From positions 1-64,000 of the forward strand of contig JAOZHW010000022.1 in the NCBI GenBank assembly GCA_026014685.1: DNA of 64,000 bases. The letters are read 5' to 3'. The notes beneath the pieces were generated by a model. That model ran no database searches. It saw only the letters and a program-made list of their open reading frames with translations, and was not told the origin of the DNA. Position numbers and translations under genes: made by a program. This stretch comes from Candidatus Bathyarchaeota archaeon. Lineage in GTDB: Archaea > Thermoproteota > Bathyarchaeia > Bathyarchaeales > Bathycorpusculaceae. Shown piece by piece: positions 1 to 44,044 of this stretch (position 1 is the first letter of the stretch; every line of letters begins with the position of its first letter).

Positions 1-183
1 TGGAATATGAGTTTTGAGCGTCCACGTAAAGTCTACAGTTTAACCAGTGACGGTCAAAGCATGCTAAACTTTACTGAGGAGTCGTTGAATTTGATTTGTA
101 GAAAAATCAGCATCGCCACTCCCGAACCAGAAATCGGCATCATAACCCCCAAGAGCAAAACCCCATACATAGAATCCCATTAA
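1..183 (+). CDS. PadR-like transcriptional regulator, C-terminal end
   Basis: An open frame enters from the left edge and ends at TAA 181-183, leaving 60 residues. It contains the string RPRKVYSLTSDGQSML, which resembles the wing and following helix of PadR-family winged-helix repressors (R-x-Y-x-LT-x-x-G). The domain start lies outside the window. The assignment rests on this short motif only, so other winged-helix families are possible. Confidence 0.5.
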   Translation, partial: WNMSFERPRKVYSLTSDGQSMLNFTEESLNLICRKISIATPEPEIGIITPKSKTPYIESH

Positions 184-31648: not shown

Positions 31649-32314
31649 TTAGGATATTCTTGTGGCTGTTTCTATGATGAATCCTCTTCTGCCCAACGTA
31701 TAGGTTAACCTGCGTGTGGGGATAATCGTTCCTGCCATCTTGCGGATAATCAACTGCCTACTCGTCGAGTCTGAGTTCCAGTTTAAGGCGAAGTTTATGG
31801 CGCCTTCGGCGAAGTGGTTGATGGTGGTTTCTTCCTGTGGGGTTTGCATGCCTTCGGTTAGGAGCAGGAGTTGGAAGGTTTGGCTTTTGCGGTTTTGATG
31901 GGTCATAGAGGTCAATAGGTTGACGATGTCTTGTATGTTGTGGCTGAGTAGCAGTTCTGAGACTGAGTCTATGGCTACTGCTCTTGATTGCCGCATTTCG
32001 GTTAAGATGGCTTCTGATAGGTCGCTTGTTTTGGTGTCTTTGAGGCTCTCGAAGCGCCATGCGCCGCTTTCTTCTGTGGGTGTGAGGTTCCAGCCGTATG
32101 CTGCCATGTCTTCTCGGACGCTTTCGGCTGTGGCGTTGACTGTGAAGTAGGTGACTGGGCAGGTTTTTACGCGGTAGAACAGGACTTGTCGTGCGAAGAC
32201 TTCGTTGCCTGAGCCTGGCGCGCCTGAGAGGAGTATGATTTTGGGTGGTAGGCCTCCAAGTAGGAATTCGTCGAAGCCCGCGATGCCAGTCTTCACAGGT
32301 ATCATAATAGTCAA
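31649..32314 (-). CDS. KaiC/ArlH-like RecA-superfamily protein with degenerate P-loop
   Basis: 221 residues, a single KaiC domain. The start VKTGIAGFDEFLLGGLPPKI is the family hallmark, and AVAIDSVSELLLSH is the Walker B strand (near 115). The Walker A reads GAPGSGNE (near residues 31-38), with Asn-Glu where Lys-Ser/Thr is expected, so ATP hydrolysis is probably lost although binding may remain. It is divergent from the pilin operon. ArlH-type proteins of this fold regulate archaellum and pilus motors, so a role beside the ArlI-like ATPase is plausible; that is inference from context. Confidence 0.75.
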   Translation of the reverse strand: MTIMIPVKTGIAGFDEFLLGGLPPKIILLSGAPGSGNEVFARQVLFYRVKTCPVTYFTVNATAESVREDMAAYGWNLTPTEESGAWRFESLKDTKTSDLSEAILTEMRQSRAVAIDSVSELLLSHNIQDIVNLLTSMTHQNRKSQTFQLLLLTEGMQTPQEETTINHFAEGAINFALNWNSDSTSRQLIIRKMAGTIIPTRRLTYTLGRRGFIIETATRIS

Positions 32315-32521: not shown

Positions 32522-33040
32522 ATGAACTTCATGAAAAATGTAAGAAAGTTCCGTAAAAACGCGCGTGCAATCTCACCAGTAATCGCCACACTTTTAATGA
32601 TCGCCATAGCAGTCGTAGCCTCACTCGTAACCTACGCATGGGTCATGGGATACATGAGCTTCCAGACCGAGAAAACAGGCAAAGCAATACTAATCCAAAG
32701 CGTAACCTATGATGGAAAGGCGACTGGCGGTGTTAATGATGTCTTTACTGTTTACCTCCAGAATGTAGGCGACTCAGATGTTCAAATGATAAGCCCCGCA
32801 GGAGTTAAGAGCACAATATACATCGAAGGGAAACCAGCAACCGTTGGCGAAATCAAAGTTGGTACAACTTCAAACCCAGCAGCATTAGCCACTGAAGCGA
32901 CAGCCTCAATAAAACTCACAACAGATGGAGCATTACCCGCTGGTGTTCAATCAATCACAATCAAGGTTACAACTATTGACGGAACTCAAACCGAAATAAC
33001 AAAACAATTCACAATTAATCCAACTCCAACTCCAACTTGA
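32522..33040 (+). CDS. Type IV pilin (archaellin-like class III signal peptide)
   Basis: 172 residues. The basic leader ends RKNARA, then the hydrophobic pilin helix ISPVIATLLMIAIAVVASLV with cleavage expected before I by a PibD-like prepilin peptidase. The mature domain is a beta sandwich with FTVYLQNVGDSDVQ and SIKLTTDGALPAGVQ, ending in a short Pro/Thr tail. It is the first gene of the plus-strand pilus operon and probably the main pilus subunit. A poly-T terminator follows. Confidence 0.88.
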   Translation: MNFMKNVRKFRKNARAISPVIATLLMIAIAVVASLVTYAWVMGYMSFQTEKTGKAILIQSVTYDGKATGGVNDVFTVYLQNVGDSDVQMISPAGVKSTIYIEGKPATVGEIKVGTTSNPAALATEATASIKLTTDGALPAGVQSITIKVTTIDGTQTEITKQFTINPTPTPT

Positions 33041-33131: not shown

Positions 33132-34814
33132 TTGAAAGCAGACAAAGAGGGCTTCAAGAAAGTGTTTTCGCGCAAAAAACCAGCCGAAACTCTACAACAA
33201 CCAGTAACCATACCACCCATCGTTGTGGAAGAAAAAAAGAGTAAACCCCGCCTTTCTCTGCGTAAAAAACCCAAAACCGAAGCCCCCGCACCCGTAGCTG
33301 CCGCTGAAGAAGCGGAGCCCCAATCGGCTGAACCCTCTAACATCAAAGTCCTCGAATCTTACCCGCTCATTGAGCCGTTTGCTTATGCCAAATTGGTTAA
33401 AGACCTTGACCGAGGAACCATCCAGTACATAGTCGAGGAACCCACCCTGACCAGCAGCGACAAAGTTCACCTCAAGCGGCTCAAAGATATCCTTAACCAA
33501 GTCATAACCATGAAGCCCGCGGACTTAAAATCTAAAGAAACCGCGACAAGGTACTTGGTTGCCAAGAGTAAAGAAATCTTTGAAGATTACGACTTTAAAA
33601 TCGACAAAGCTACCCAAGATAAACTCCTCTACTGCATTGTGCGGGACAATTTGGGTTTTGGCAAAATCGACGCTTTAATGCATGATCAACTCATCGAAGA
33701 CCTCTCATGCGACGGCGTCAACGTCCCCTTGTTTGTTTGGCACCGCAAATCTGAATCCATCCCCACAAACGTCAAATTCGAAACTGCAGAAGAACTTGAC
33801 TCTTTTGCGCTCCGATTGGCTTACATGTGCGGCGCCCACGTTTCCATCGCGCAGCCGTTGCTTGATGCGAGTTTACCTGACGGAAGCAGAATTAACCTGA
33901 CTTTTGGCAGCGAAGTCACCCGCAAAGGCTCCACTTTCACCATACGCAAATTCAAAATTGACCCCTTCACAGTCACCGACTTGGTTACTTTTAACACGAT
34001 TTCGGCGGAGATGGCAGCGTTCTTCTGGTACGCAGTCGAAAACCGAGTTTCGATTCTCGTGGCTGGAGGCATCGCAGCGGGCAAAACCACCTTGCTAAAC
34101 TGCCTCAGCATGTTCATCAAACCCGACCTAAAAGTCGTCTCCATCGAAGACACCCCTGAAATCAATTTGCCCCATGAGAACTGGATTCCTGCAACCACCA
34201 GAAGCCACTTTGGCGTCGCCACAGATTCAGCCGACGTAACCCTCTTTGATTTGCTAAAGGCTTCGTTGCGGCAGAGACCTGACTACATCATCGTGGGCGA
34301 AATCAGGGGCGCAGAAGCCTACACGCTGTTCCAAGCGGTCAGCACAGGCCACCTCGGCATGTCCACCGTGCACGCAGAATCAGTCGAATCCGCAGTTTAC
34401 CGCCTAGAATCCGCACCCATGAACATCCCAAGAACACTCATCGCGGGAATAGACCTCATTTTGGTGCAGAAACGCATCGAAATTAAGGGCAAACCCGCCA
34501 GAAAAACCGTTGCCGCCTCAGAAATCGTCGGCTTAGATCCCCGTTCAGGCGAAATCTTAACCAACGAGGTTTACCGCTGGAATTCTGGCAGCGAAACCTT
34601 CGATTACACTGGCAGAAGCTACATCCTCGAAAAAATCGCAGAGAAAACAGGCTTAAGCATCGAGCAAGCTGAGCAGGAACTGAAGAACCGCACCAAAATC
34701 ATAAAATGGATGACTAAAAAAGGCATACGAAACTACAAAGACGTCTCAAACATCATCCGCTCCTACCTAGAGAACCCTGCCCGCGTACTCTCGGAGGCTT
34801 CAAAAGACGAATAA
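33132..34814 (+). CDS. Type IV pilus assembly ATPase (ArlI/TadA/GspE family)
   Basis: 560 residues from TTG 33132 with GAGAGGGGAA about 8 bases upstream. Residues 1-75 are a disordered Lys/Pro/Ala linker. The N2 domain follows, then the ATPase core: VAGGIAAGKTTLLNCL (Walker A, near 316), the Asp box SIEDTPEINLP, Walker B YIIVGEIRGAEA (near 388), and the His box GHLGMSTVHAESVESAV. It powers pilin polymerisation at the membrane with the F proteins downstream. Length and linker resemble archaeal pilus rather than archaellum ATPases. Confidence 0.92.
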   Translation: MKADKEGFKKVFSRKKPAETLQQPVTIPPIVVEEKKSKPRLSLRKKPKTEAPAPVAAAEEAEPQSAEPSNIKVLESYPLIEPFAYAKLVKDLDRGTIQYIVEEPTLTSSDKVHLKRLKDILNQVITMKPADLKSKETATRYLVAKSKEIFEDYDFKIDKATQDKLLYCIVRDNLGFGKIDALMHDQLIEDLSCDGVNVPLFVWHRKSESIPTNVKFETAEELDSFALRLAYMCGAHVSIAQPLLDASLPDGSRINLTFGSEVTRKGSTFTIRKFKIDPFTVTDLVTFNTISAEMAAFFWYAVENRVSILVAGGIAAGKTTLLNCLSMFIKPDLKVVSIEDTPEINLPHENWIPATTRSHFGVATDSADVTLFDLLKASLRQRPDYIIVGEIRGAEAYTLFQAVSTGHLGMSTVHAESVESAVYRLESAPMNIPRTLIAGIDLILVQKRIEIKGKPARKTVAASEIVGLDPRSGEILTNEVYRWNSGSETFDYTGRSYILEKIAEKTGLSIEQAEQELKNRTKIIKWMTKKGIRNYKDVSNIIRSYLENPARVLSEASKDE

Positions 34815-35688
34815 GACCCTGCTTTCCCTCTTTCTTAGAGTCTCAACGTACGTTCCCAAATCCTTAACTAACGAACTCAAAAGCCTACAGGACAACCTTG
34901 AGAAGGCTGGCGTGAAAATCACTTTTGACGCCTACATGGGCTTAACCGCGTTTGCCACGTTACTCGCCACGGTTTTGGGGTTTGTGATTTCACTGGCAGT
35001 ATTAGCGGCAAGAGGCCCCATAGTTCCCGCATTAATCTTCTCCATAATCGCAGCCATGATGGCGGCACTCATCTCTTTCGGCGCCTGCTATGCTTACCCG
35101 ATTCTGCAGATATCCTCCAAAGTCAGAAAAATCGAGGCCAACCTCCCCATGACCGCCAACTTTATGTCCGTCTTAGCCAGCTCAGGCATGCCCCCAGAAC
35201 GCATATTCCGCTCCTTAGCCAACGTCGGAGACGAATTCGGCGTGGGCGACGAAGTACGCCGCGCAGTAGCCGACACCGAAATCATGGGCTTAGACTTAAA
35301 CGATGCCTTGAGGCGGGCCTCGGTGCGGTCTGCTTCCCGCAAGTTCGGCGCGATGCTGGACGGTATCGTGGCGACTTCGCACATGGGCGGCGACTTGGCT
35401 TCGTATCTGCGTGACGAGGCGGATAAATTCAAGAAAGCCCGCACAACCGCCATGAAAAGTTTCCTTGATAGTTTAGCGGGTATGGCAGAGATGTATGTTA
35501 GCTTCATGATTGCACTGCCACTGGTGCTCGTAGTTATGCTCTCAGTTATGTCGTTTTTGGGGGGTAGCATCTCATTGTTCGGCGGCTTAGACCCCTCTGC
35601 CGTTATGATACTGATGACCTTCGTTGTTACCCCCGCGGGCGTAATGATTATGCTCCTGCTGGTCGATTCACTGACTCCACCGAGGTAG
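34807..35688 (+). CDS. Pilus assembly membrane protein, F domain (first of two)
   Basis: From GTG 34912 this is 258 residues with the F-domain core: FMSVLASSGMPPERIFRSLA (near 85), RKFGAMLDGIVATSHMGGDL and several membrane helices. The frame continues upstream with credible coding sequence: STYVPKSLTNELKSLQDNLE, the usual lead-in of this family. It reaches back to at least 34807 without any ATG, GTG or TTG. GGAGG at 34793-34797 lies 9 bases before ACG 34807; CTG 34819 is another candidate. The true start is therefore probably non-canonical, and the interval given is the extended one. Confidence 0.75.
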   Translation, partial: TNKTLLSLFLRVSTYVPKSLTNELKSLQDNLEKAGVKITFDAYMGLTAFATLLATVLGFVISLAVLAARGPIVPALIFSIIAAMMAALISFGACYAYPILQISSKVRKIEANLPMTANFMSVLASSGMPPERIFRSLANVGDEFGVGDEVRRAVADTEIMGLDLNDALRRASVRSASRKFGAMLDGIVATSHMGGDLASYLRDEADKFKKARTTAMKSFLDSLAGMAEMYVSFMIALPLVLVVMLSVMSFLGGSISLFGGLDPSAVMILMTFVVTPAGVMIMLLLVDSLTPPR

Positions 35689-35693
35689 ACTCC

Positions 35694-36545
35694 ATGGGAA
35701 AAGTAACCGTACAAACAAAGCAACGCGTGCTCGCAGCATCATTGATCGCCGTCATGATACTGGTGGTTTCAGTCGCAGCCATATCCATGCGGGCCCTGGC
35801 AACCTACATAAACGAAATCTTCTTTGTCAGCTGCCTCATCGTCTTGGTGCCCTCTGCCATTCTGGACTTTAAACATCAAAGATGGATATCAGCCATCGAA
35901 GACCAAATGCCCCTGCTCGTTAGGGGTGTGGCTGAGTCGCAGGAGACAGGCATGACCTTGGTGCGTGCGTTTGAGAAAGTGGTGGATAACAACATGGTCA
36001 GCGGACCACTGGCTAAGGAGGTTAAGCAGATGGTTGTGCAGATGTCTTGGGGCACCTCCTTTGAAGACGCCTTAACAAACTTCAAGAATAACATAAACTC
36101 GCCGATAGTCAACCGATTCTGCGTCCTCGTCTTGGAGGCGAGCCACTCAGGCGGCACCATCAAAAAAGTTTTCACCGCCACCTCCGGTTTCATGGAGGAA
36201 ATGAAGGAAATCGACCGCGACACCAGCGCCCAGATGAAGCCCTACATCATCGTCATCTACGCAGCGTTCGCCGTGTTCTTGGTTACTGCGATTTTGCTGG
36301 TCAGCAGCTTCTTTGCCCCCTTGGAGGGCTCAAAAGATGTGCTTAGCAGTTTAACCAGCGGCGGCGGCACGAGCAACTTCAAAGAATTCTTCTACCAGAA
36401 CATGATGGTTTCGGCGTTGACTGGCGGTTTGATGGCTGGCAAAATCGGGGAACGCCGAGTGGCAGGCGGCTTGAAACACAGCATCTTGTTGCTGGTTGCG
36501 GGGTACGCGATTTTCTTGGCTGCTATACCGCCAAGTTGGATGTGA
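35694..36545 (+). CDS. Pilus assembly membrane protein, F domain (second of two)
   Basis: 283 residues from ATG 35694, 5 bases after the first F gene. QMPLLVRGVAESQETGMTLV and SPIVNRFCVLVLEASHSGGT (near 130-150) are the F-domain core. Membrane helices lie near 15-50, 185-215 and 255-280. In archaella the two F domains are one protein (ArlJ). Here they are separate, as in TadB/TadC. The pair forms the inner-membrane platform for the ATPase. Confidence 0.88.
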   Translation: MGKVTVQTKQRVLAASLIAVMILVVSVAAISMRALATYINEIFFVSCLIVLVPSAILDFKHQRWISAIEDQMPLLVRGVAESQETGMTLVRAFEKVVDNNMVSGPLAKEVKQMVVQMSWGTSFEDALTNFKNNINSPIVNRFCVLVLEASHSGGTIKKVFTATSGFMEEMKEIDRDTSAQMKPYIIVIYAAFAVFLVTAILLVSSFFAPLEGSKDVLSSLTSGGGTSNFKEFFYQNMMVSALTGGLMAGKIGERRVAGGLKHSILLLVAGYAIFLAAIPPSWM

Positions 36546-36553
36546 AACATGAA

Positions 36554-37027
36554 ATGAAGCGACTACTAAAATCCAAAAGTGGGGTTTCACCCGTCATCGC
36601 AACGGTACTGATGATTCTGGTTACGATGGTTGGGATGACGCTGCTGTTCGGTTTTGTCACGTACTACGCAGATACCTACCAATCGGGCATAGGCAGCCAA
36701 GTCAGAGAATTGCTAGTCGTAGAAGACATATGGATAAACCCCCCAGGTTCAGATTTAAACCATGTCCCTGTCAAGATATCCATCTATAACGCTGGCAAAA
36801 TAGATTCAATTATCACATCGGTTTATGTGAATGGCTTGTCTTTGACAGAAAAATCTCCAGATGATGATTCCTATAACAACTTTAATTTAAACATAAAAGT
36901 ACCCCAAGGAGGTCACATAAGCGTTACACTCTACAGAAATGTAGGGGTTTGGTCTCCAGGTGAATACACTTTCACAGTTGGAACTAAAACGGGTTCAACC
37001 TTCGACACAAACTATAGAATACCATAG
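36554..37027 (+). CDS. Type IV pilin, minor subunit
   Basis: 157 residues from ATG 36554. The leader KSKSG precedes VSPVIATVLMILVTMVGMTL, a class III signal and pilin helix. The mature domain (from about 45) has beta strands and a Tyr/Asn-rich end. It follows the F genes within 10 bases, so it is probably a minor or initiating pilin made with the assembly machine. Confidence 0.85.
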   Translation: MKRLLKSKSGVSPVIATVLMILVTMVGMTLLFGFVTYYADTYQSGIGSQVRELLVVEDIWINPPGSDLNHVPVKISIYNAGKIDSIITSVYVNGLSLTEKSPDDDSYNNFNLNIKVPQGGHISVTLYRNVGVWSPGEYTFTVGTKTGSTFDTNYRIP

Positions 37028-37036
37028 TGAGGAAAA

Positions 37037-37480
37037 ATGATGTTCAAAAGACTGTTGAACGACAAAAAAGGCGCGGCGGAAGTAGTTGGCACAGTGATGT
37101 TCATAGTCATCTTGATGTTCTTCTTCACAAACGTGTACCTCTGGCATGATGCGGCAGTCAAAGAAATGAACGACCTATACGCAGAAAAACTAAATTCACA
37201 AATATCAATAGAAGACAAAAACACCGACGGATTCGTACATGGCTACAACCCCACCACTCATGTTCTATTGGTGAAAAACAATGGTGGGGTGGATGCAATA
37301 ATAGAATGTTACTGGATAAACCACGATATGACTGAAATCCCTGACGATGCACCCGATAGCGTTAAGTTGGTTCGTGCAGGCACTGGCGCGATGGAACTCC
37401 GTTTGGAAAACGTTCCTGCCAATATTGAGGTTATCAAAGTTATTACCACTACAGGCAACATCGCTAAGTGGGTACCCTAA
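37037..37480 (+). CDS. Pseudopilin-like protein
   Basis: 147 residues. The leader LLNDKKGA is followed by AEVVGTVMFIVILMFFFTNV, a pilin-type helix lacking the ISPVI start but with the Glu near position 5 of the mature chain typical of pilins. The outside domain is small and acidic. It is the last gene of the pilus operon, 9 bases after the minor pilin, and is probably a tip or priming subunit. Confidence 0.75.
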   Translation: MMFKRLLNDKKGAAEVVGTVMFIVILMFFFTNVYLWHDAAVKEMNDLYAEKLNSQISIEDKNTDGFVHGYNPTTHVLLVKNNGGVDAIIECYWINHDMTEIPDDAPDSVKLVRAGTGAMELRLENVPANIEVIKVITTTGNIAKWVP

Positions 37481-37527: not shown

Positions 37528-37944
37528 TTAGTTTGTCCAGTCTAGCGTTGGTTGACTATACGCGGTGAGCGCTTCGCCCGTGTAGCTAAACGTCAAATTC
37601 ACCGTCTGCGTTTGGCCTGCCGCGATGTCTGGCAGCAACTTGCTGGTGTCGATGGCGGTGGCGTTGCCGCTTTGCAAGGCATAAACGTGCAGAGTCACGC
37701 TTTTGGCGGTGCCGTTGCCGACGTTTTCGATTGTGCCTTTTACTTGGAGGTAGGGGTTGTGGCTGTTGGTGCGGTTGTCCACCACTTGCAGGTTGGCTTC
37801 GAGTTTGGGCACGAAGGTGTCTTGGGGTGGAGGGGTTTGGCTGCCGGGGAACATTACAATCGCTACGTAAGTAACTGCTGCGATGACTAAAACGGCGACT
37901 ACGCCTAGGACTATTAGTTTTCTTTTCTTGGCTGTTTGAGCCAT
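37528..37944 (-). CDS. Anchored FxLYD/CARDB-like surface protein
   Basis: 138 residues. A basic start and one membrane helix (LIVLGVVAVLVIAAVTYVAI) precede a short Pro linker and one beta-sandwich domain with LQVKGTIENVGNGTAKSVTL and LLPDIAAGQTQTVNLTFSY, the FxLYD-type pattern. Its end converges on the pilus operon. A similar gene lies at 52775-53176. Role unknown; probably structural at the cell surface. Confidence 0.65.
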   Translation of the reverse strand: MAQTAKKRKLIVLGVVAVLVIAAVTYVAIVMFPGSQTPPPQDTFVPKLEANLQVVDNRTNSHNPYLQVKGTIENVGNGTAKSVTLHVYALQSGNATAIDTSKLLPDIAAGQTQTVNLTFSYTGEALTAYSQPTLDWTN

Positions 37945-38303: not shown

Positions 38304-39389
38304 CTACGCAACATTCACTTTCAAGGCGCGCGACAAGTTAACTCCACTAAGCACCCACTCCCCCGCCGACAACCCCGCCGCCGCCTCCGGAAGCACCTCC
38401 AAATCCACATTCTGACTGGTTTTGCCTGCGAGTTGCGTGGCGACTTGGCTGAGGATTTCGCTGCCCAACGCGGACGGTGACGATGTGATCATGCAGAGCG
38501 CTAAGCCGACTTTGCGTCCTTTCGAGAGTGCCTCGGCGAGCTCAAACCCAACGAGGTTCTCCGCCTCCTCCACCACGACAAGCGTGGGGCCAATTTTGTC
38601 TTCTAAGCGCAACTTCAAAAGCCTCACTAAAGCTTCCGAATAGGCTGCCTGCTTCTCAGTAAGCGACAACTTTACCGCAGAAACCCCGACCACACGCGGC
38701 TTACCCAACTCTTTCTGCAACCCCTCCACAGCCCCAACATCCAGATTCACCTGCACCACATCCCCATACTCGCCGTATGGGTCGAAGATGACGATGCGTG
38801 TGGCTGCGGCGGCTTGGGTGGCGCGGATGAGTTTTTTGGCTGTGACGGTTTTGCCTGCGCCTGCATCCGCGGAGATGAGGCTGTGTTGGCCGGTGAAGTC
38901 CTCGGCGTCTATGAATGCTTTGACGGGTCCGCTGCTGGCTTCCTCTAAGGCTGCGCCTTCGTAGGTGCCGATTTCGATGGGCGCTTTGAAGGGTTGCCCT
39001 TTCTGGTTACGGTTCAAAATATCCTGCAAGAAGCCCTTAAGCGGGATGTAGACGCGGCTGCCCGGCGTCGGCGGCACCAACACCCTCCGCAAAGGCTTGG
39101 CTTCAGCGGATAGGTCGATGCAGCCCAAAACGTGCGCGATGGCCAGCATCTTGCCTTTGCGTTCGTTTATGGTGGAGCCCGCGATCTCTTCGTAGCTGGA
39201 GATGTCTTTGATGACTGCCAAAATCTGGGTTTGGTCGCCCAGCAAGGGGTGGTCGACGATTACGTAGTCGCCCTTCTGCACGCCCACGCGGCTCTTAGGG
39301 GGACTGACTAGAAACGTGAATTGTTCGATGTGGCTGTCGTTTGAGATGAGTCCAAAATGTTCTCTGACGCGGACGGAAGTGTGGTCCAA
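38304..39389 (-). CDS. HerA-like ATPase
   Basis: 361 residues from TTG 39389. The HAS-barrel-like N-terminus carries GDYVIVDHPLLGDQTQILAV. The P-loop is ISADAGAGKTVTAKKLI (near 175), the strand VIFDPYGEYGDV follows, and Walker B is TLVVVEEAENLVG (near 280). HerA proteins are hexameric DNA translocases; the classical one works with NurA, which is not nearby. This is shorter than HerA (about 500 residues), so it may be a paralogue with another role, perhaps linked to the pilus genes or to plasmid-type functions. Confidence 0.8.
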   Translation of the reverse strand: MDHTSVRVREHFGLISNDSHIEQFTFLVSPPKSRVGVQKGDYVIVDHPLLGDQTQILAVIKDISSYEEIAGSTINERKGKMLAIAHVLGCIDLSAEAKPLRRVLVPPTPGSRVYIPLKGFLQDILNRNQKGQPFKAPIEIGTYEGAALEEASSGPVKAFIDAEDFTGQHSLISADAGAGKTVTAKKLIRATQAAAATRIVIFDPYGEYGDVVQVNLDVGAVEGLQKELGKPRVVGVSAVKLSLTEKQAAYSEALVRLLKLRLEDKIGPTLVVVEEAENLVGFELAEALSKGRKVGLALCMITSSPSALGSEILSQVATQLAGKTSQNVDLEVLPEAAAGLSAGEWVLSGVNLSRALKVNVA

Positions 39390-39827: not shown

Positions 39828-41987
39828 TTGAAAAGAGCAATTAACGTAAGAAACATCACCAAACTCAAACGAAACGTAAAAGCAATCTCACCCGTAATCG
39901 CAACCCTACTGATGATAGCCATAGCCGTCGTAGCCTCACTAGTAGTCTACGCATGGATAAACGGCTACATGAACTTCCAAACAGAAAAAGCAGGACAAGC
40001 CATAGCCATACCAAGCTTCGCCGTAGCTGACGATAAAAGAATGGTCATCTACGTCCAAAACGTTGGACAAGGAACCGTCGAAGTCGGCTCAGTCTACATA
40101 GACGGCGAACTGAAAAATTTTGAAACTGATAACAGTGTAATTCCTGAAGGCGGCACAATCGCACTAATCGTAAGCGGAGAATACAATTCAAACACACGCT
40201 ACGACATCAAAGTAACCACCACCGGCGGCACATCCATGACCGCCACAGGCAAACCAGGCACAGGCACCAGCGGACCCGTAACTCCAGGTAACAATGCACC
40301 CACTGCACAGTTCACTTACACAGCAAACTACCTCACCGTCCAATTCACCGATACCTCAACCGACAGCGACGGTACAATAGCCTCCCGCACATGGGACTTC
40401 GGCGACACCCAAACAAGCACAGACACCAACCCGTCCCACACTTACGCTTCAGAGGGAACTTATACCGTAACTTTAACCGTCACCGACAACGGCGGCAAAA
40501 CAGACACTTACTCACAAGATATTCAAGTCTCCGACTCGCTATCCGTAAGCATCAGCCCAGTGGGTCCATTAACTATGACTGCTGGCAATAAACAGACCTT
40601 CACTGCCTCCGTTACTGGCGGTGTCGGCGCAAAGTCCTATCAATGGTACTTGGATGGCACCATAGTTTCTGGTCAGACCAGCTCCACCTACGAATATACT
40701 GCTTCAGTTACCGGTTCACCCCATACCGTTTACGTAAAAGTAACCGACAGTGCAACCCCACCAGTTTCACTTGACTCAAACTCAGTAACTATAACTGTGA
40801 ATGCTGCGACAGTTGCCATACAATTTAGACAAAACGGAGCAGGCAGCGATGCAACCCAAGCCATAGTTACCATCGACTCAGTAACATACACTTACGCACA
40901 ACTACAAACATTATCCTTCAACTGGGTACCCGGAACCACCCACTCAATCAGCGCATCCACAACAGTAGCGGCAGGAACAGGAAAACAATATGCATGGACA
41001 AGCTGGAGCATCGGCGGCTCAGCCTCCCAAACATACACAACCCCCAACTCAGCAGCAACCGTGACAGCCAACTACAAGACCCAATATCAATGTTCTTTCG
41101 GTGCAGGTAACATAGGCACAGGTTATACAGGCACAGTGCTCACAGTAGGCTCAACAACTTACACAAGCCTTCCACAAAACAACCTCTGGGTTGACAGCGG
41201 CACCACATATTCCTACACAGGCACAGTTCCAGCAGGCACTGGCAAACAATACGTCTTAACAGGCACAACAGGTTTAGCTACCCCAATAATAACCTCAGGT
41301 ACAGCCACACCAACATACAAAACACAATACTATGTTACTTTCGAAGTTAGTCCATCTGGTTCAGGTACCACTACCGCATCTGGTTGGTTTGACGGTGGTG
41401 TATCAGGCCAAGCAATATCTGCAAGCCCAAATAGCGGATATACTTTCTCAGCGTGGTCTAACCCATCTGGTTCAGTAACATTCGCTAGCTCAGGTTCAGC
41501 ATCAACAACTATGACCGTCAATTCTGCAAGCACCGTTAGAGCAACTTTCACAGTTCAAGACCATTATATTGATACATCCACTCAAGGCCTTCATAATACA
41601 GCGCAACGCGGAACGATAACTAATTTCAACAACATGCAAGATGGCGATAGTGACTTTGGTACAATTACCGAAAGTAGCAGTACCGATGGTAGACGTGCTG
41701 ACATCCAAATGCAATTTACCAGCGTAAGTAACTATGCATCATATACTGCTTTAGAAATAAAAACTGGCACCGGTTCATATGGTTCTCCAGGTGAAAACTT
41801 AAACGTTTACTACTGGAGCGGCTCGCAATGGGTCTCATTGGGTACAATGTCTCAATCTAGCTATACATACACTTTTACAGTTGCTCTAAGCAGTTCATCG
41901 TTCGACATTAGATTCGTTGACTCAAATACTGGCTCTGATAGCAATACCAGCAGTTGGAATATCGAATTCGTTAGACTATCTGCATAA
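39828..41987 (+). CDS. Giant pilin-adhesin: type IV pilin fused to PKD and repeat domains
   Basis: 719 residues from TTG 39828. Residues 1-50 are a class III signal and pilin helix (AISPVIATLLMIAIAVVASL). A normal-looking small pilin head follows to about 130, then a Thr/Gly linker. A PKD domain spans about 155-235 with FTDTSTDSDGTIASRTWDFG and YTVTLTVTDNGGK. An Ig-like unit (240-325), InlB-like repeats with GKQYAWTSWSI and PNSGYTFSAWS, and a terminal beta domain (580-719, jelly-roll-like) complete it. It could be a pilus-tip adhesin processed by prepilin peptidase. TTG is used with GAGAAGGGAA upstream. Confidence 0.85.
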   Translation: MKRAINVRNITKLKRNVKAISPVIATLLMIAIAVVASLVVYAWINGYMNFQTEKAGQAIAIPSFAVADDKRMVIYVQNVGQGTVEVGSVYIDGELKNFETDNSVIPEGGTIALIVSGEYNSNTRYDIKVTTTGGTSMTATGKPGTGTSGPVTPGNNAPTAQFTYTANYLTVQFTDTSTDSDGTIASRTWDFGDTQTSTDTNPSHTYASEGTYTVTLTVTDNGGKTDTYSQDIQVSDSLSVSISPVGPLTMTAGNKQTFTASVTGGVGAKSYQWYLDGTIVSGQTSSTYEYTASVTGSPHTVYVKVTDSATPPVSLDSNSVTITVNAATVAIQFRQNGAGSDATQAIVTIDSVTYTYAQLQTLSFNWVPGTTHSISASTTVAAGTGKQYAWTSWSIGGSASQTYTTPNSAATVTANYKTQYQCSFGAGNIGTGYTGTVLTVGSTTYTSLPQNNLWVDSGTTYSYTGTVPAGTGKQYVLTGTTGLATPIITSGTATPTYKTQYYVTFEVSPSGSGTTTASGWFDGGVSGQAISASPNSGYTFSAWSNPSGSVTFASSGSASTTMTVNSASTVRATFTVQDHYIDTSTQGLHNTAQRGTITNFNNMQDGDSDFGTITESSSTDGRRADIQMQFTSVSNYASYTALEIKTGTGSYGSPGENLNVYYWSGSQWVSLGTMSQSSYTYTFTVALSSSSFDIRFVDSNTGSDSNTSSWNIEFVRLSA

Positions 41988-42534: not shown

Positions 42535-42759
42535 ATGACAGAAATCGTTACCGTCAGAGTCAAAAAAACCCTCAAAGAAAAAACACGAAAATACAAAATA
42601 GACATAAGCAAAACCGTCAGGGCAGCTCTTGAAGCAGAAATCAAAAAACACGAACAAGAAGAACTATCACAAGCCCTCAGCGACATAAAAATTATCTTGC
42701 AAAAAATTCCTGACGAAGAAATCGCGAAAGCCATAAGGGAATCAAGAGACCAAAGATGA
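42535..42759 (+). CDS. vapB: VapB-type antitoxin (ribbon-helix-helix)
   Basis: 74 residues. A short strand (IVTVRVKKTLKEKTRKYKID) is followed by two helices, the ribbon-helix-helix plan, then a Glu/Ile-rich tail likely to wrap the toxin. It overlaps the PIN toxin by 4 bases (ATGA). It would bind its own promoter and neutralise the nuclease. Confidence 0.78.
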   Translation: MTEIVTVRVKKTLKEKTRKYKIDISKTVRAALEAEIKKHEQEELSQALSDIKIILQKIPDEEIAKAIRESRDQR

Positions 42760-43190
42760 AGCGCTACCTCCTAGATGCCAGCTCCTTTATGCTTTTAATG
42801 AAAACAGCAGACCCACAAACAACACTGACTTATCTAGAAGCATCCTGCATACTTGACTTAACATTTTACGAAGTTGGAAACGCAATCTTCAAAGAAACCT
42901 ACATAACCAACTTTTTAACAAAACAAGAATCAGAAACCCTAAAAAACAGAATGCAAAAAATATTCTCAGCAACCCAAAAACTATCCCCAACACCAGACCA
43001 ATTCCAACAGATACTCGACATTTCAGAAAGCGAAAAACTCACCTTCTACGATGCAAGCTACCTTTTTGCAGCAAAAGAAAACGGACTAATTTTAGTCACA
43101 GAAGACAAACAATTAAAAAATAAAGCCCAAAAACACATCCAAACAACAAATGCGGTAACCCTAAACGCTACAAAACCAAAAGAAGAATAA
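42756..43190 (+). CDS. vapC: VapC-type PIN-domain ribonuclease toxin
   Basis: 144 residues. The four acidic positions of PIN nucleases are visible: LLDASSF (Asp, residue 6), the Glu in FYEVGNAIF (near 40), TFYDASYLFAA (Asp, near 98) and VTEDKQL (near 117). These cut tRNA or rRNA at specific sites in the known cases; the target here is unknown. Coupled to the antitoxin by a 4-base overlap. Confidence 0.85.
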   Translation: MKRYLLDASSFMLLMKTADPQTTLTYLEASCILDLTFYEVGNAIFKETYITNFLTKQESETLKNRMQKIFSATQKLSPTPDQFQQILDISESEKLTFYDASYLFAAKENGLILVTEDKQLKNKAQKHIQTTNAVTLNATKPKEE

Positions 43191-43416: not shown

Positions 43417-43668
43417 TTGGAAATTGAATTCGAAGTAGCAGAAAAAGAGGTTGTAGTGACAAAGAAGGGTCAAACAACCATTCCCGTGAGCCTGCGCAAG
43501 AAGTACAAAATCCAAGAGGGAACAAAACTTGCGGTGCTCGATACAGAGGACGGCATTTTGCTTAAGCCTAAAAAGTCAATTTGGGACAGCGTAGGCGCAT
43601 ACTCGCAGTATGGGTCTCCCGAGGAAATGAAGAAACTACTCGATAAACTCAGGGAAGAAGATGAATAA
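43417..43668 (+). CDS. AbrB/MazE-type antitoxin (swapped-hairpin)
   Basis: 83 residues from TTG 43417. VVVTKKGQTTIPVSLRKKYK and GTKLAVLDTEDGILLKPKKS are the SpoVT/AbrB swapped-hairpin pattern, followed by a toxin-binding tail (DSVGAYSQYGSPEEMKKLLD). It overlaps the next gene by 8 bases. This pairing with a PIN toxin is common in archaea. Confidence 0.87.
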   Translation: MEIEFEVAEKEVVVTKKGQTTIPVSLRKKYKIQEGTKLAVLDTEDGILLKPKKSIWDSVGAYSQYGSPEEMKKLLDKLREEDE

Positions 43669-44044
43669 AGCAGTTTATGATACCCGTTTTTTTATGGAGT
43701 TATACTATTCAAGCGATAGTGAAGTAATAAAAAAGATTAAGCAGGAGCAAAATCGGAAAGAGCGATTCATTTCAGCAGCTGTTATTTATGAAGTTTACAA
43801 GTTGGCGATAGTTAGGGAAGGACGGGAAATAGCGAAAATAAAAGTCACTGAAATACGAAACAGTTTTCAAATAATCCCCGTTAGTGACCAAATTGCAGAG
43901 TTTGCCGCCCAACTAAGCCATAAATACCAACTCTCAATGGGTGACAGTATAATTGCGGCGACAGCAGCCCTGTTAGATGCTGTTTGTTTCTCCGACGATG
44001 TGCACTTTGGGAAAATCAGAGAAATCAAAACCGCATGGATATAA
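43661..44044 (+). CDS. vapC: PIN-domain ribonuclease toxin (VapC family)
   Basis: 127 residues from ATG 43661. Acidic positions: VYDTRFFMELYY (Asp, residue 6), AVIYEVYKLA (Glu, near 41), MGDSIIAATAALL (Asp, near 94) and FSDDVHFG (near 112). Partner of the AbrB-type antitoxin just upstream. Sequence differs clearly from the first VapC, so the two pairs are independent modules. Confidence 0.87.
   Translation: MNKAVYDTRFFMELYYSSDSEVIKKIKQEQNRKERFISAAVIYEVYKLAIVREGREIAKIKVTEIRNSFQIIPVSDQIAEFAAQLSHKYQLSMGDSIIAATAALLDAVCFSDDVHFGKIREIKTAWI

Follow-up and report, generated by a model that had tools for sequence, protein, structure and literature searches.

The 64,000-nucleotide stretch analyzed here (the window; positions 1 to 64,000 of contig JAOZHW010000022.1, assembly GCA_026014685.1) comes from Candidatus Bathyarchaeota archaeon. 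One of its genes, at 39828–41987 on the plus strand, encodes a 719-residue protein that carries a pilin at its N terminus and a long modular arm behind it. The protein is probably an archaeal modular type IV pilin, assembled together with a small pilin from the same locus and displaying an exchangeable arm for adhesion or recognition. The observations that bear on this reading are the head-to-tail architecture of the protein, the pilin fold of its head, its place in a conserved pilus locus, a helix that tracks the helix of the small pilin, and tails that have diverged between near-identical flanks. From these we infer processing, co-assembly, display, and binding. A preliminary description of the DNA had seen a pilin signal and helix fused to a large surface region, and had proposed a tip adhesin or a decorated minor pilin. 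That interpretation is partly supported: it was largely right but too narrow.

The notion is that, after export, the class III signal would be cut behind residue A19 by the cell's prepilin peptidase. The helix of the mature head (residues 20–143) would then pack into one filament together with the small pilin encoded at 32522, and the ATPase and TadC proteins encoded in the locus would drive assembly. Thanks to a flexible linker, the PKD, Ig-like, and InlB-like units would act as a stalk that holds a jelly-roll, lectin-like terminus at a distance from the filament, and that terminus could bind a surface, a glycan, or another cell. Recombination between related genomes would replace the arm and keep the pilin head.

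The gene is one intact frame with a TTG start and no internal stop, so the single long protein of the preliminary description stands. The product opens with a class III (pilin-type) signal peptide (residues 1–19; 39828–39884), with cleavage predicted between K18-A19 and I20. There follow the mature pilin helix (residues 20–56; 39885–39995), a pilin beta domain (residues 57–143; 39996–40256), and a linker rich in Gly, Thr, Ser, and Pro (about residues 144–155; 40257–40292). The arm consists of a PKD domain (residues 155–235; 40290–40532), an Ig-like unit (about residues 236–327; 40533–40808), three InlB/beta-repeat-like units (about residues 328–416, 417–500, and 501–578; 40809–41561), and a C-terminal jelly-roll module (residues 579–719; 41562–41984). 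All of these lie on the plus strand.

The pilin start is a standard one, as had been claimed. Specifically, the archaellin/pilin N-terminus model TIGR02537 matches residues 17–47 with 41.2 bits against a cut-off of 20, and the Pfam model Pilin_N falls below its cut-off (21.2 versus 25.2). The mature chains of Iho670 (5kyh) and of 3j1r start at the residue aligned with I20, and because the Iho670 chain does so, the cut is predicted to fall after A19. AlphaFold2 models a helix over residues 21–56 with a predicted local distance difference test (pLDDT) score above 80, which holds for most of residues 21–140. Beta strands follow over residues 59–141 with pLDDT above 90 in most blocks (mostly above 90 over 61–140), and the score drops to about 31–61 at residues 141–170, where the linker lies. 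By sequence, the head matches the 144-residue subunit of the Pyrobaculum calidifontis type IV pilus, 8fk7, with an E-value of 3.7e-9 over 123 residues. By fold, it matches the same subunit with a Z-score of 10.8 (127 residues aligned, root-mean-square deviation 4.2), and it also resembles the S. acidocaldarius AAP filament (Z 9.0) and an archaellum (Z 9.5). By sequence and model alike, the head is a complete pilin, with both helix and beta domain; the preliminary description had named the signal and the helix correctly and stopped short of the beta domain. The bacterial N_methyl model, which we take to belong to IPR012902, is absent from the Pfam scan of the large pilin to E 1.

The protein is also unusual in size, as the preliminary description had said. 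Among 123 TIGR02537 heads found in 61 genomes, 14 sit on open frames of at least 350 residues and seven on frames of at least 500 residues; the seven come from five genomes, all of the window's genus.

Behind the linker, the arm is identified unit by unit and with unequal firmness. PKD_4 matches residues 155–232 above the Pfam cut-off (E 4.2e-17), and the region also matches solved PKD domains of collagenases. Flg_new_2, an InlB-type unit, matches residues 504–576 above its cut-off (E 1.4e-7). These two results bear out part of the run of PKD, Ig-like, and beta-repeat units first proposed. The remainder of that proposal lacks such matches: the Ig-like unit (about residues 238–326) has only sub-threshold Pfam matches (Big_7, 18.7 versus 24.1 bits), together with low-confidence strands and similar units in relatives, and the beta units at about residues 328–415 and 417–500 have no Pfam match and are recognized by similarity to relatives. 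We claim no fold for the whole stalk, given the low confidence of its model.

The last 141 residues form a separate, widely shared module that the preliminary description had missed. The module occurs in 51 of 256 genomes of the class; 35 further copies were aligned, and five columns are invariant in a 12-copy alignment. When predicted alone from its single sequence, it forms a jelly roll (predicted template modeling score 0.64, mean pLDDT 59). Fold matches of this model are weak, with a best Z-score of 8.6, 8.1 for CBM29 and CBM86, and 7.7 for CBM6. Unrelated jelly rolls, among them Eph receptor ligand-binding domains, Elapor1, and BcsB, match at the same Z-score as these carbohydrate-binding modules, and therefore the fold match names no function. 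A profile search links the module to a fucose-binding lectin (E 0.0017 over 56 columns), and a search with the single sequence of the module alone found no solved structure to E 1. Thus the module model is weakly lectin-like, and we do not call it a lectin. Within the genus, the module lies less than 10 kilobases from a type IV pilus ATPase gene at eight of nine places, the window included; the sole exception is G006 C3:30677. Judged by eye, several kinds of pilin-like start precede it, and in other copies the start resembles an ordinary secretion signal. Its closeness to pilus ATPase genes and its presence on other pilin-like heads count in favor of the modular-pilin reading. In one genome (G053), a 436-residue frame at L166:2-1312 holds three copies of the module in tandem.

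The gene belongs to a pilus locus with a fixed order: KaiC-like ATPase, small pilin, assembly ATPase, two TadC proteins, minor pilins 1 and 2, CARDB protein, HerA-like ATPase, large pilin. In the window, the KaiC-like gene (31649–32314, minus strand; library match and synteny) is divergent from the gene for the small pilin, likely the major pilin (32522–33040, plus; TIGR02537 35.4 bits and synteny). Next come the type IV pilus assembly ATPase of the T2SSE family (33132–34814, plus; PF00437, E 1.6e-40) and the two halves of the TadC/T2SSF membrane platform (34912–35688 and 35694–36545, both plus; PF00482, E 1.2e-15 and 3.2e-17). Minor pilin 1 (36536–37027, plus) matches Pilin_N barely above cut-off. 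Minor pilin 2 (37037–37480, plus) has no meaningful library match and is assigned from its conserved place and a profile link to long forms elsewhere. A small CARDB-domain protein (37528–37944, minus; PF07705) is present in four of eight loci. The HerA-like ATPase gene (38304–39389, minus; DUF87, E 1.4e-11), whose weak NCBIfam matches include CedD, a DNA import protein, and HerA helicases, is divergent from the large pilin gene. A prepilin peptidase gene lies on the same contig (C22:96110-96460; Peptidase_A24, E 4.4e-10), in keeping with the earlier suggestion that the large pilin would be handled by the pilin peptidase. Downstream of the large pilin, two small plus-strand frames (42756–43190 and 43661–44044) look by eye like PIN-type toxins of toxin–antitoxin pairs.

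This arrangement recurs. In all eight loci with a pilus ATPase of 69% identity or more, a pilin-headed protein of 357–1296 residues occupies the same place, divergent from the HerA-like gene, and the assembly ATPase and TadC platform (33132–36545 in the window) are encoded alongside it. The long form is thus present at seven loci besides the window's own, so the refuting condition named in the preliminary description, its absence from relatives, does not hold. An orthologous ATPase, at least 74% identical, is found in five of 32 genomes of the genus (the next best ATPase is 51% identical), and all five loci have the large pilin: 719 residues in the window, 993 in G013, 1296 in bog_991, 405 in SRBZ_4, and 580 in palsa_986. 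Large pilins beside small ones, a pairing proposed at the outset as worth seeking in relatives, occur in five genus genomes, counting palsa_986, where the small pilin gene is on a separate contig (L082), beside a KaiC gene. A second group of three loci, from M17C-01, Bathyarchaeum tardum, and G105 (the Bathyarchaeum-type loci), has the same order with a large pilin of 357–359 residues. A ninth locus (L090; ATPase 63% identical) ends before the large-pilin place and was not counted. Errors of assembly are possible in metagenome-assembled genomes, but the repetition of the arrangement in eight genomes argues against chimerism, and on the same ground we reject a chance or chimeric fusion.

A concrete link between the large pilin and the filament comes from its helix. 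As the preliminary description had noticed, the large pilin resembles the 172-residue pilin at 32522: the two are identical at 82% of positions over the 45-residue mature helix. Identity to the helix of minor pilin 1 is 0.27. Since the head resembles the small pilin and is unlike minor pilin 1, it is best regarded as a major-pilin-like subunit, not as a typical minor pilin. The likeness is also genome-specific. Across the five genomes with both partners (the three Bathyarchaeum-type genomes were left out, since their KaiC and ATPase genes have no small pilin gene between them), helix identity over 45 residues averages 0.818 for own-genome pairs of large and small pilin versus 0.765 for all pairings, and large pilins are 0.727 identical to one another. 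The true own-genome pairing ranks best of 120, holds rank 1–2 of 120 in most alignment windows, and ranks 1 of 24 when any one genome is left out. The beta domain shows no such tracking (own-genome 0.300 versus 0.299, rank 59 of 120; large–large 0.407), nor does minor pilin 1 as the partner (ranks 41 and 37 of 120) or, as a control, the signal peptide alone (rank 108 of 120). Subunits that share a filament would be expected to show a tracked helix and an untracked beta domain, and we read the pattern as co-evolution of surfaces that would pack against each other there. Recent gene conversion was considered and rejected as its source: the longest in-register identical DNA runs between the genes are 8–20 nucleotides, and tracking at synonymous codons is not clear or significant (rank 13 of 120). 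Older gene conversion may have contributed.

These results bear on an alternative in which the protein is anchored at the cell surface and stays outside the pilus, the class III signal and helix serving only to hold it in the membrane or in a non-pilus assembly, as with the sugar-binding bindosome proteins of Sulfolobales. PibD-type peptidases also process substrate-binding proteins (PMC4858521, PMC4371748), and a bindosome ATPase model is among the NCBIfam matches of the locus ATPase, far below cut-off. Against these stand a head that is a whole pilin and goes beyond the helix alone, a helix that tracks the small pilin of its own genome, and a gene fixed to the pilus locus in eight of eight cases. 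Moreover, neither Pfam nor NCBIfam reported a solute- or substrate-binding domain behind the class III signal to E 1. We consider a cell-anchored protein unlikely. The pilin fold, the fixed place in the locus, the helix tracking, and the presence of a prepilin peptidase gene in the genome all favor a decorated pilin or pilus adhesin. This was half of what had been proposed at the outset; the other half, a minor pilin, gives way to a major-pilin-like subunit.

The large pilin may sit at the tip of the filament or along its shaft, and a tip adhesin, as first suggested, goes beyond the evidence as one of these two placements. A special case of the modular-pilin reading, and compatible with it, is that the large pilin serves only as a tip cap, with minor pilins 1 and 2, on a shaft made entirely of small pilin, much as PilABC does in Streptococcus sanguinis. 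The bulky modular pilins of that species are placed at the tip (PMC10628169, PMC8179133), and the same locus encodes two minor pilins. Yet the helix is like that of the small pilin and unlike that of the minor pilin, and a flexible linker would permit a position in the shaft as well. We regard a tip cap as a serious possibility, somewhat short of probable.

The arm varies far more than the head. The arms of the five genus genomes are of unequal length and carry different domains; part of this comparison covered 17 large proteins hand-chosen from the loci. The clearest case is provided by the three Bathyarchaeum-type loci. There, amino acid identity is 99–100% for the ATPase, 99–100% for TadC, and 96–98% for HerA; within the large pilin, it is 92–95% for the head and 41–62% for the tail. 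DNA compared in 150-base bins is mostly 94–100% identical on both sides of the divergent stretch, with values of 0.88–0.97 in those bins that cover the head or directly follow the stretch. Between M17C-01 and B. tardum, DNA identity is mostly 95–100% and drops to 50–62% for about 0.9 kilobases, starting at the tail; in the other two pairs, it is 51–88% in the tail stretch. The divergent stretch runs from the first tail codons to about 270 base pairs past the stop. The large pilin, at 62% and 74%, is the single outlier among 22 frames of the 21-kilobase locus; no other frame falls below 86%, a value reached in one comparison.

Codon differences point to the manner of change. Specifically, M17C-01 and B. 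tardum differ by 57 synonymous and 110 nonsynonymous codons among 201 tail codons, and by six synonymous codons and one nonsynonymous codon among the 568 of the ATPase. Because the synonymous sites of the tail are so heavily different, replacement by a diverged allele would account for the tail, and a burst of amino acid changes would not. Recombination is the cause that we propose. A search with the B. tardum tail found no second copy in the three Bathyarchaeum-type genomes, each of which gave one copy, that of the locus itself; thus the donor was probably another strain. Silent tail cassettes for antigenic switching were accordingly rejected, no extra tail copy having turned up in this search. 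In the window's genome, a full-protein search likewise found no second tail at E 0.001. A head that is kept and an arm that is replaced between related genomes would make the arm the part under pressure to change.

A less dramatic account of the divergent tails is that they reflect assembly artefacts or relaxed selection on a dispensable gene. The three genomes include metagenome assemblies, and a second large pilin in the window's genome is frame-shifted, a sign that genes of this kind may decay. Yet all three frames are intact, and the tails can be aligned (41–62%), share a framework, and are similar in length. The flanks return to mostly 94–100% identity on both sides, and heavy synonymous difference confined to the tail of an otherwise near-identical locus is not what relaxed selection would leave. 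Artefact or decay strikes us as quite improbable.

Several points weigh against the modular-pilin reading. B. tardum, which carries one of the loci, is described as without visible pili in electron microscopy (PMC10477458). The three Bathyarchaeum-type loci offer no small pilin, in the place between KaiC and the ATPase, against which co-assembly could be judged. The structure prediction that gave a confident pilin head gave a low-confidence stalk, with a mean pLDDT of 56 for the chain, and the lectin-like matches of the module are weak (Z about 8, and the short profile match given above). The helix comparison has a sample of five and was chosen after the identity matrix had been seen; by identity, its sub-window 25–45 ranks 10 of 120, and the rank falls to 40 of 120 when the signal peptide is included. 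Finally, second large pilins elsewhere track the small pilin of their own genome in two of four cases, one of those two being a tie, and therefore tracking may be peculiar to the copy in the locus.

Proteins of analogous build are known from bacteria. PilB and PilC of S. sanguinis likewise consist of an N-terminal pilin module, a short linker, and adhesive modules, these being a vWA and a ConA-like lectin module (PMC8179133, PMC10628169). More than 1,200 bacterial modular pilins in 264 architectures have been reported, the most extreme of 860 residues (PMC8179133, PMC10628169). The window's protein fits the published definition of a modular pilin: a pilin module, a linker, and a module not specific to pilus biology (PMC8179133). 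The bacterial census is keyed on IPR012902 (PMC8179133), and the head here is an archaeal TIGR02537 pilin. Because the bacterial N-terminal signature is absent, we say that the protein would work like the bacterial modular pilins and do not file it in that set. Unlike them, it has about six beta modules in a row, and its head and arm appear to evolve apart through exchange. The KilLMN Tad pili of Myxococcus also use large pilins with added C-terminal modules, which customize the pilus end; those are bacterial, with four paralogous tip sets per genome, whereas here the variants would be exchanged alleles of one gene (PMC12075869).

Among archaea, proteins of the arCOG02911 family are FlaFind-positive, about 250–550 residues long, and Ig-like; they occur in pilus loci and have been proposed as minor pilins, and DUF2341 proteins in such loci have been proposed as PilY-like tip adhesins (PMC4858521). 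These, too, are large class III or secreted proteins of archaeal pilus loci, but they represent other families and lineages, and that account, as far as it extends, does not describe PKD, InlB, or jelly-roll arms, the exchange of tails, or a comparison of helices (PMC4858521). Neither DUF2341 nor a PilC/PilY beta-propeller appears in the Pfam scan of the window's protein. Two relatively large pilins are predicted for a Haloferax pilus (PMC4371748). The archaeal type IV pilus subunit of P. calidifontis, 8fk7 (PMC12954529), shares the whole head, helix and beta domain, and is armless. In searches of open-licence literature, no title or abstract opening among those listed reports an archaeal pilin with PKD, InlB, or lectin-like arms or exchanged tails, which leaves absence from print unproven.

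Two archaeal systems offer parallels for the arm. In the UpsA/UpsB pili of Sulfolobales, a part of UpsA with low conservation sets species-specific recognition of S-layer N-glycans (PMC7064770). In that system a short stretch of a small pilin determines specificity (PMC7064770); here, the determinant would be a separate arm, from about 200 to more than 1,000 residues long. VARTIG, a large Ig-type surface protein of Thermococcales, has a C-terminal part exchanged by recombination between strains, and its authors saw no comparable Ig-domain variability outside Thermococcales (PMC8416519). The account of VARTIG mentions, as far as it goes, neither a pilin head nor a pilus locus (PMC8416519). Moreover, VARTIG belongs to arCOG07710 and its gene opens a variable operon at the 5′ end; the large pilin here follows pilus genes.

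We speculate that a pilus-borne, strain-specific arm, exchanged by way of its conserved flanks (the head and the downstream DNA), could be an archaeal device for self/non-self recognition or for evading viruses, an idea that we hold only tentatively and think doubtful. Ups pili and Ced are tied to DNA exchange in Sulfolobales. By analogy, we would guess that the HerA-like ATPase links the locus to DNA exchange. Were an exchanged recognition arm confirmed, recombining surface recognition proteins would extend beyond Thermococcales.

Modular pilins have been described for bacteria; the genes reported here form a well-supported archaeal series at one syntenic place, in the Bathyarchaeia, a class with almost no cultivated members. 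With a helix that follows the small pilin and an arm that is replaced, the system is suited to testing how a filament continues to accept an adhesive subunit. If the arm is a receptor for glycans or cells, it would reveal the means by which Bathyarchaeia select surfaces or partners, and it would join VARTIG as another surface protein of archaea whose end recombines.

Other large pilins occur in the window's genome and in its relatives. The second large pilin of the window's genome (L080:7001-9545, minus strand, at about 145000–147545 of contig C22 of genome G000) is split by a frame change into a 95-residue pilin-head frame and a frame of 768 residues that contains an InlB unit and ends in what resembles a jelly roll. 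The cause may be decay, sequencing error, or switching. A second pilus-type locus of the same genome (L197:1-8893; C22:88000-96900) encodes TadC, several small pilin-like proteins, and a 1166-residue protein with the pilin-like start KGQFSIIAALL that bears the same C-terminal module; the prepilin peptidase gene adjoins this protein's gene. In G006, long frames with InlB-like repeats (L072:1-3825 and L076:10703-12673) directly adjoin large pilin genes.

In six distant loci, minor pilin 2 is itself 441–813 residues long (L092:13704-15047, L093:8769-10094, L094:13693-16134, L095:13658-15478, L096:13693-15534, and L097:13691-15511). A profile of the short form finds all six long forms (E 1.9e-7 to 1.6e-4; the best of 200 shuffles reached 0.54). 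Four of the six are matched as two segments, the second weak alone, as if DUF2341 (in L092 and L093) or other modules had been inserted between helix and beta domain. Finally, a 356-residue pilin-headed protein of G155 (L239:1913-2983) appears, on inspection by eye, to hold a LamG/ConA-type lectin domain within its pilin domain, an idea similar to that of S. sanguinis PilC.

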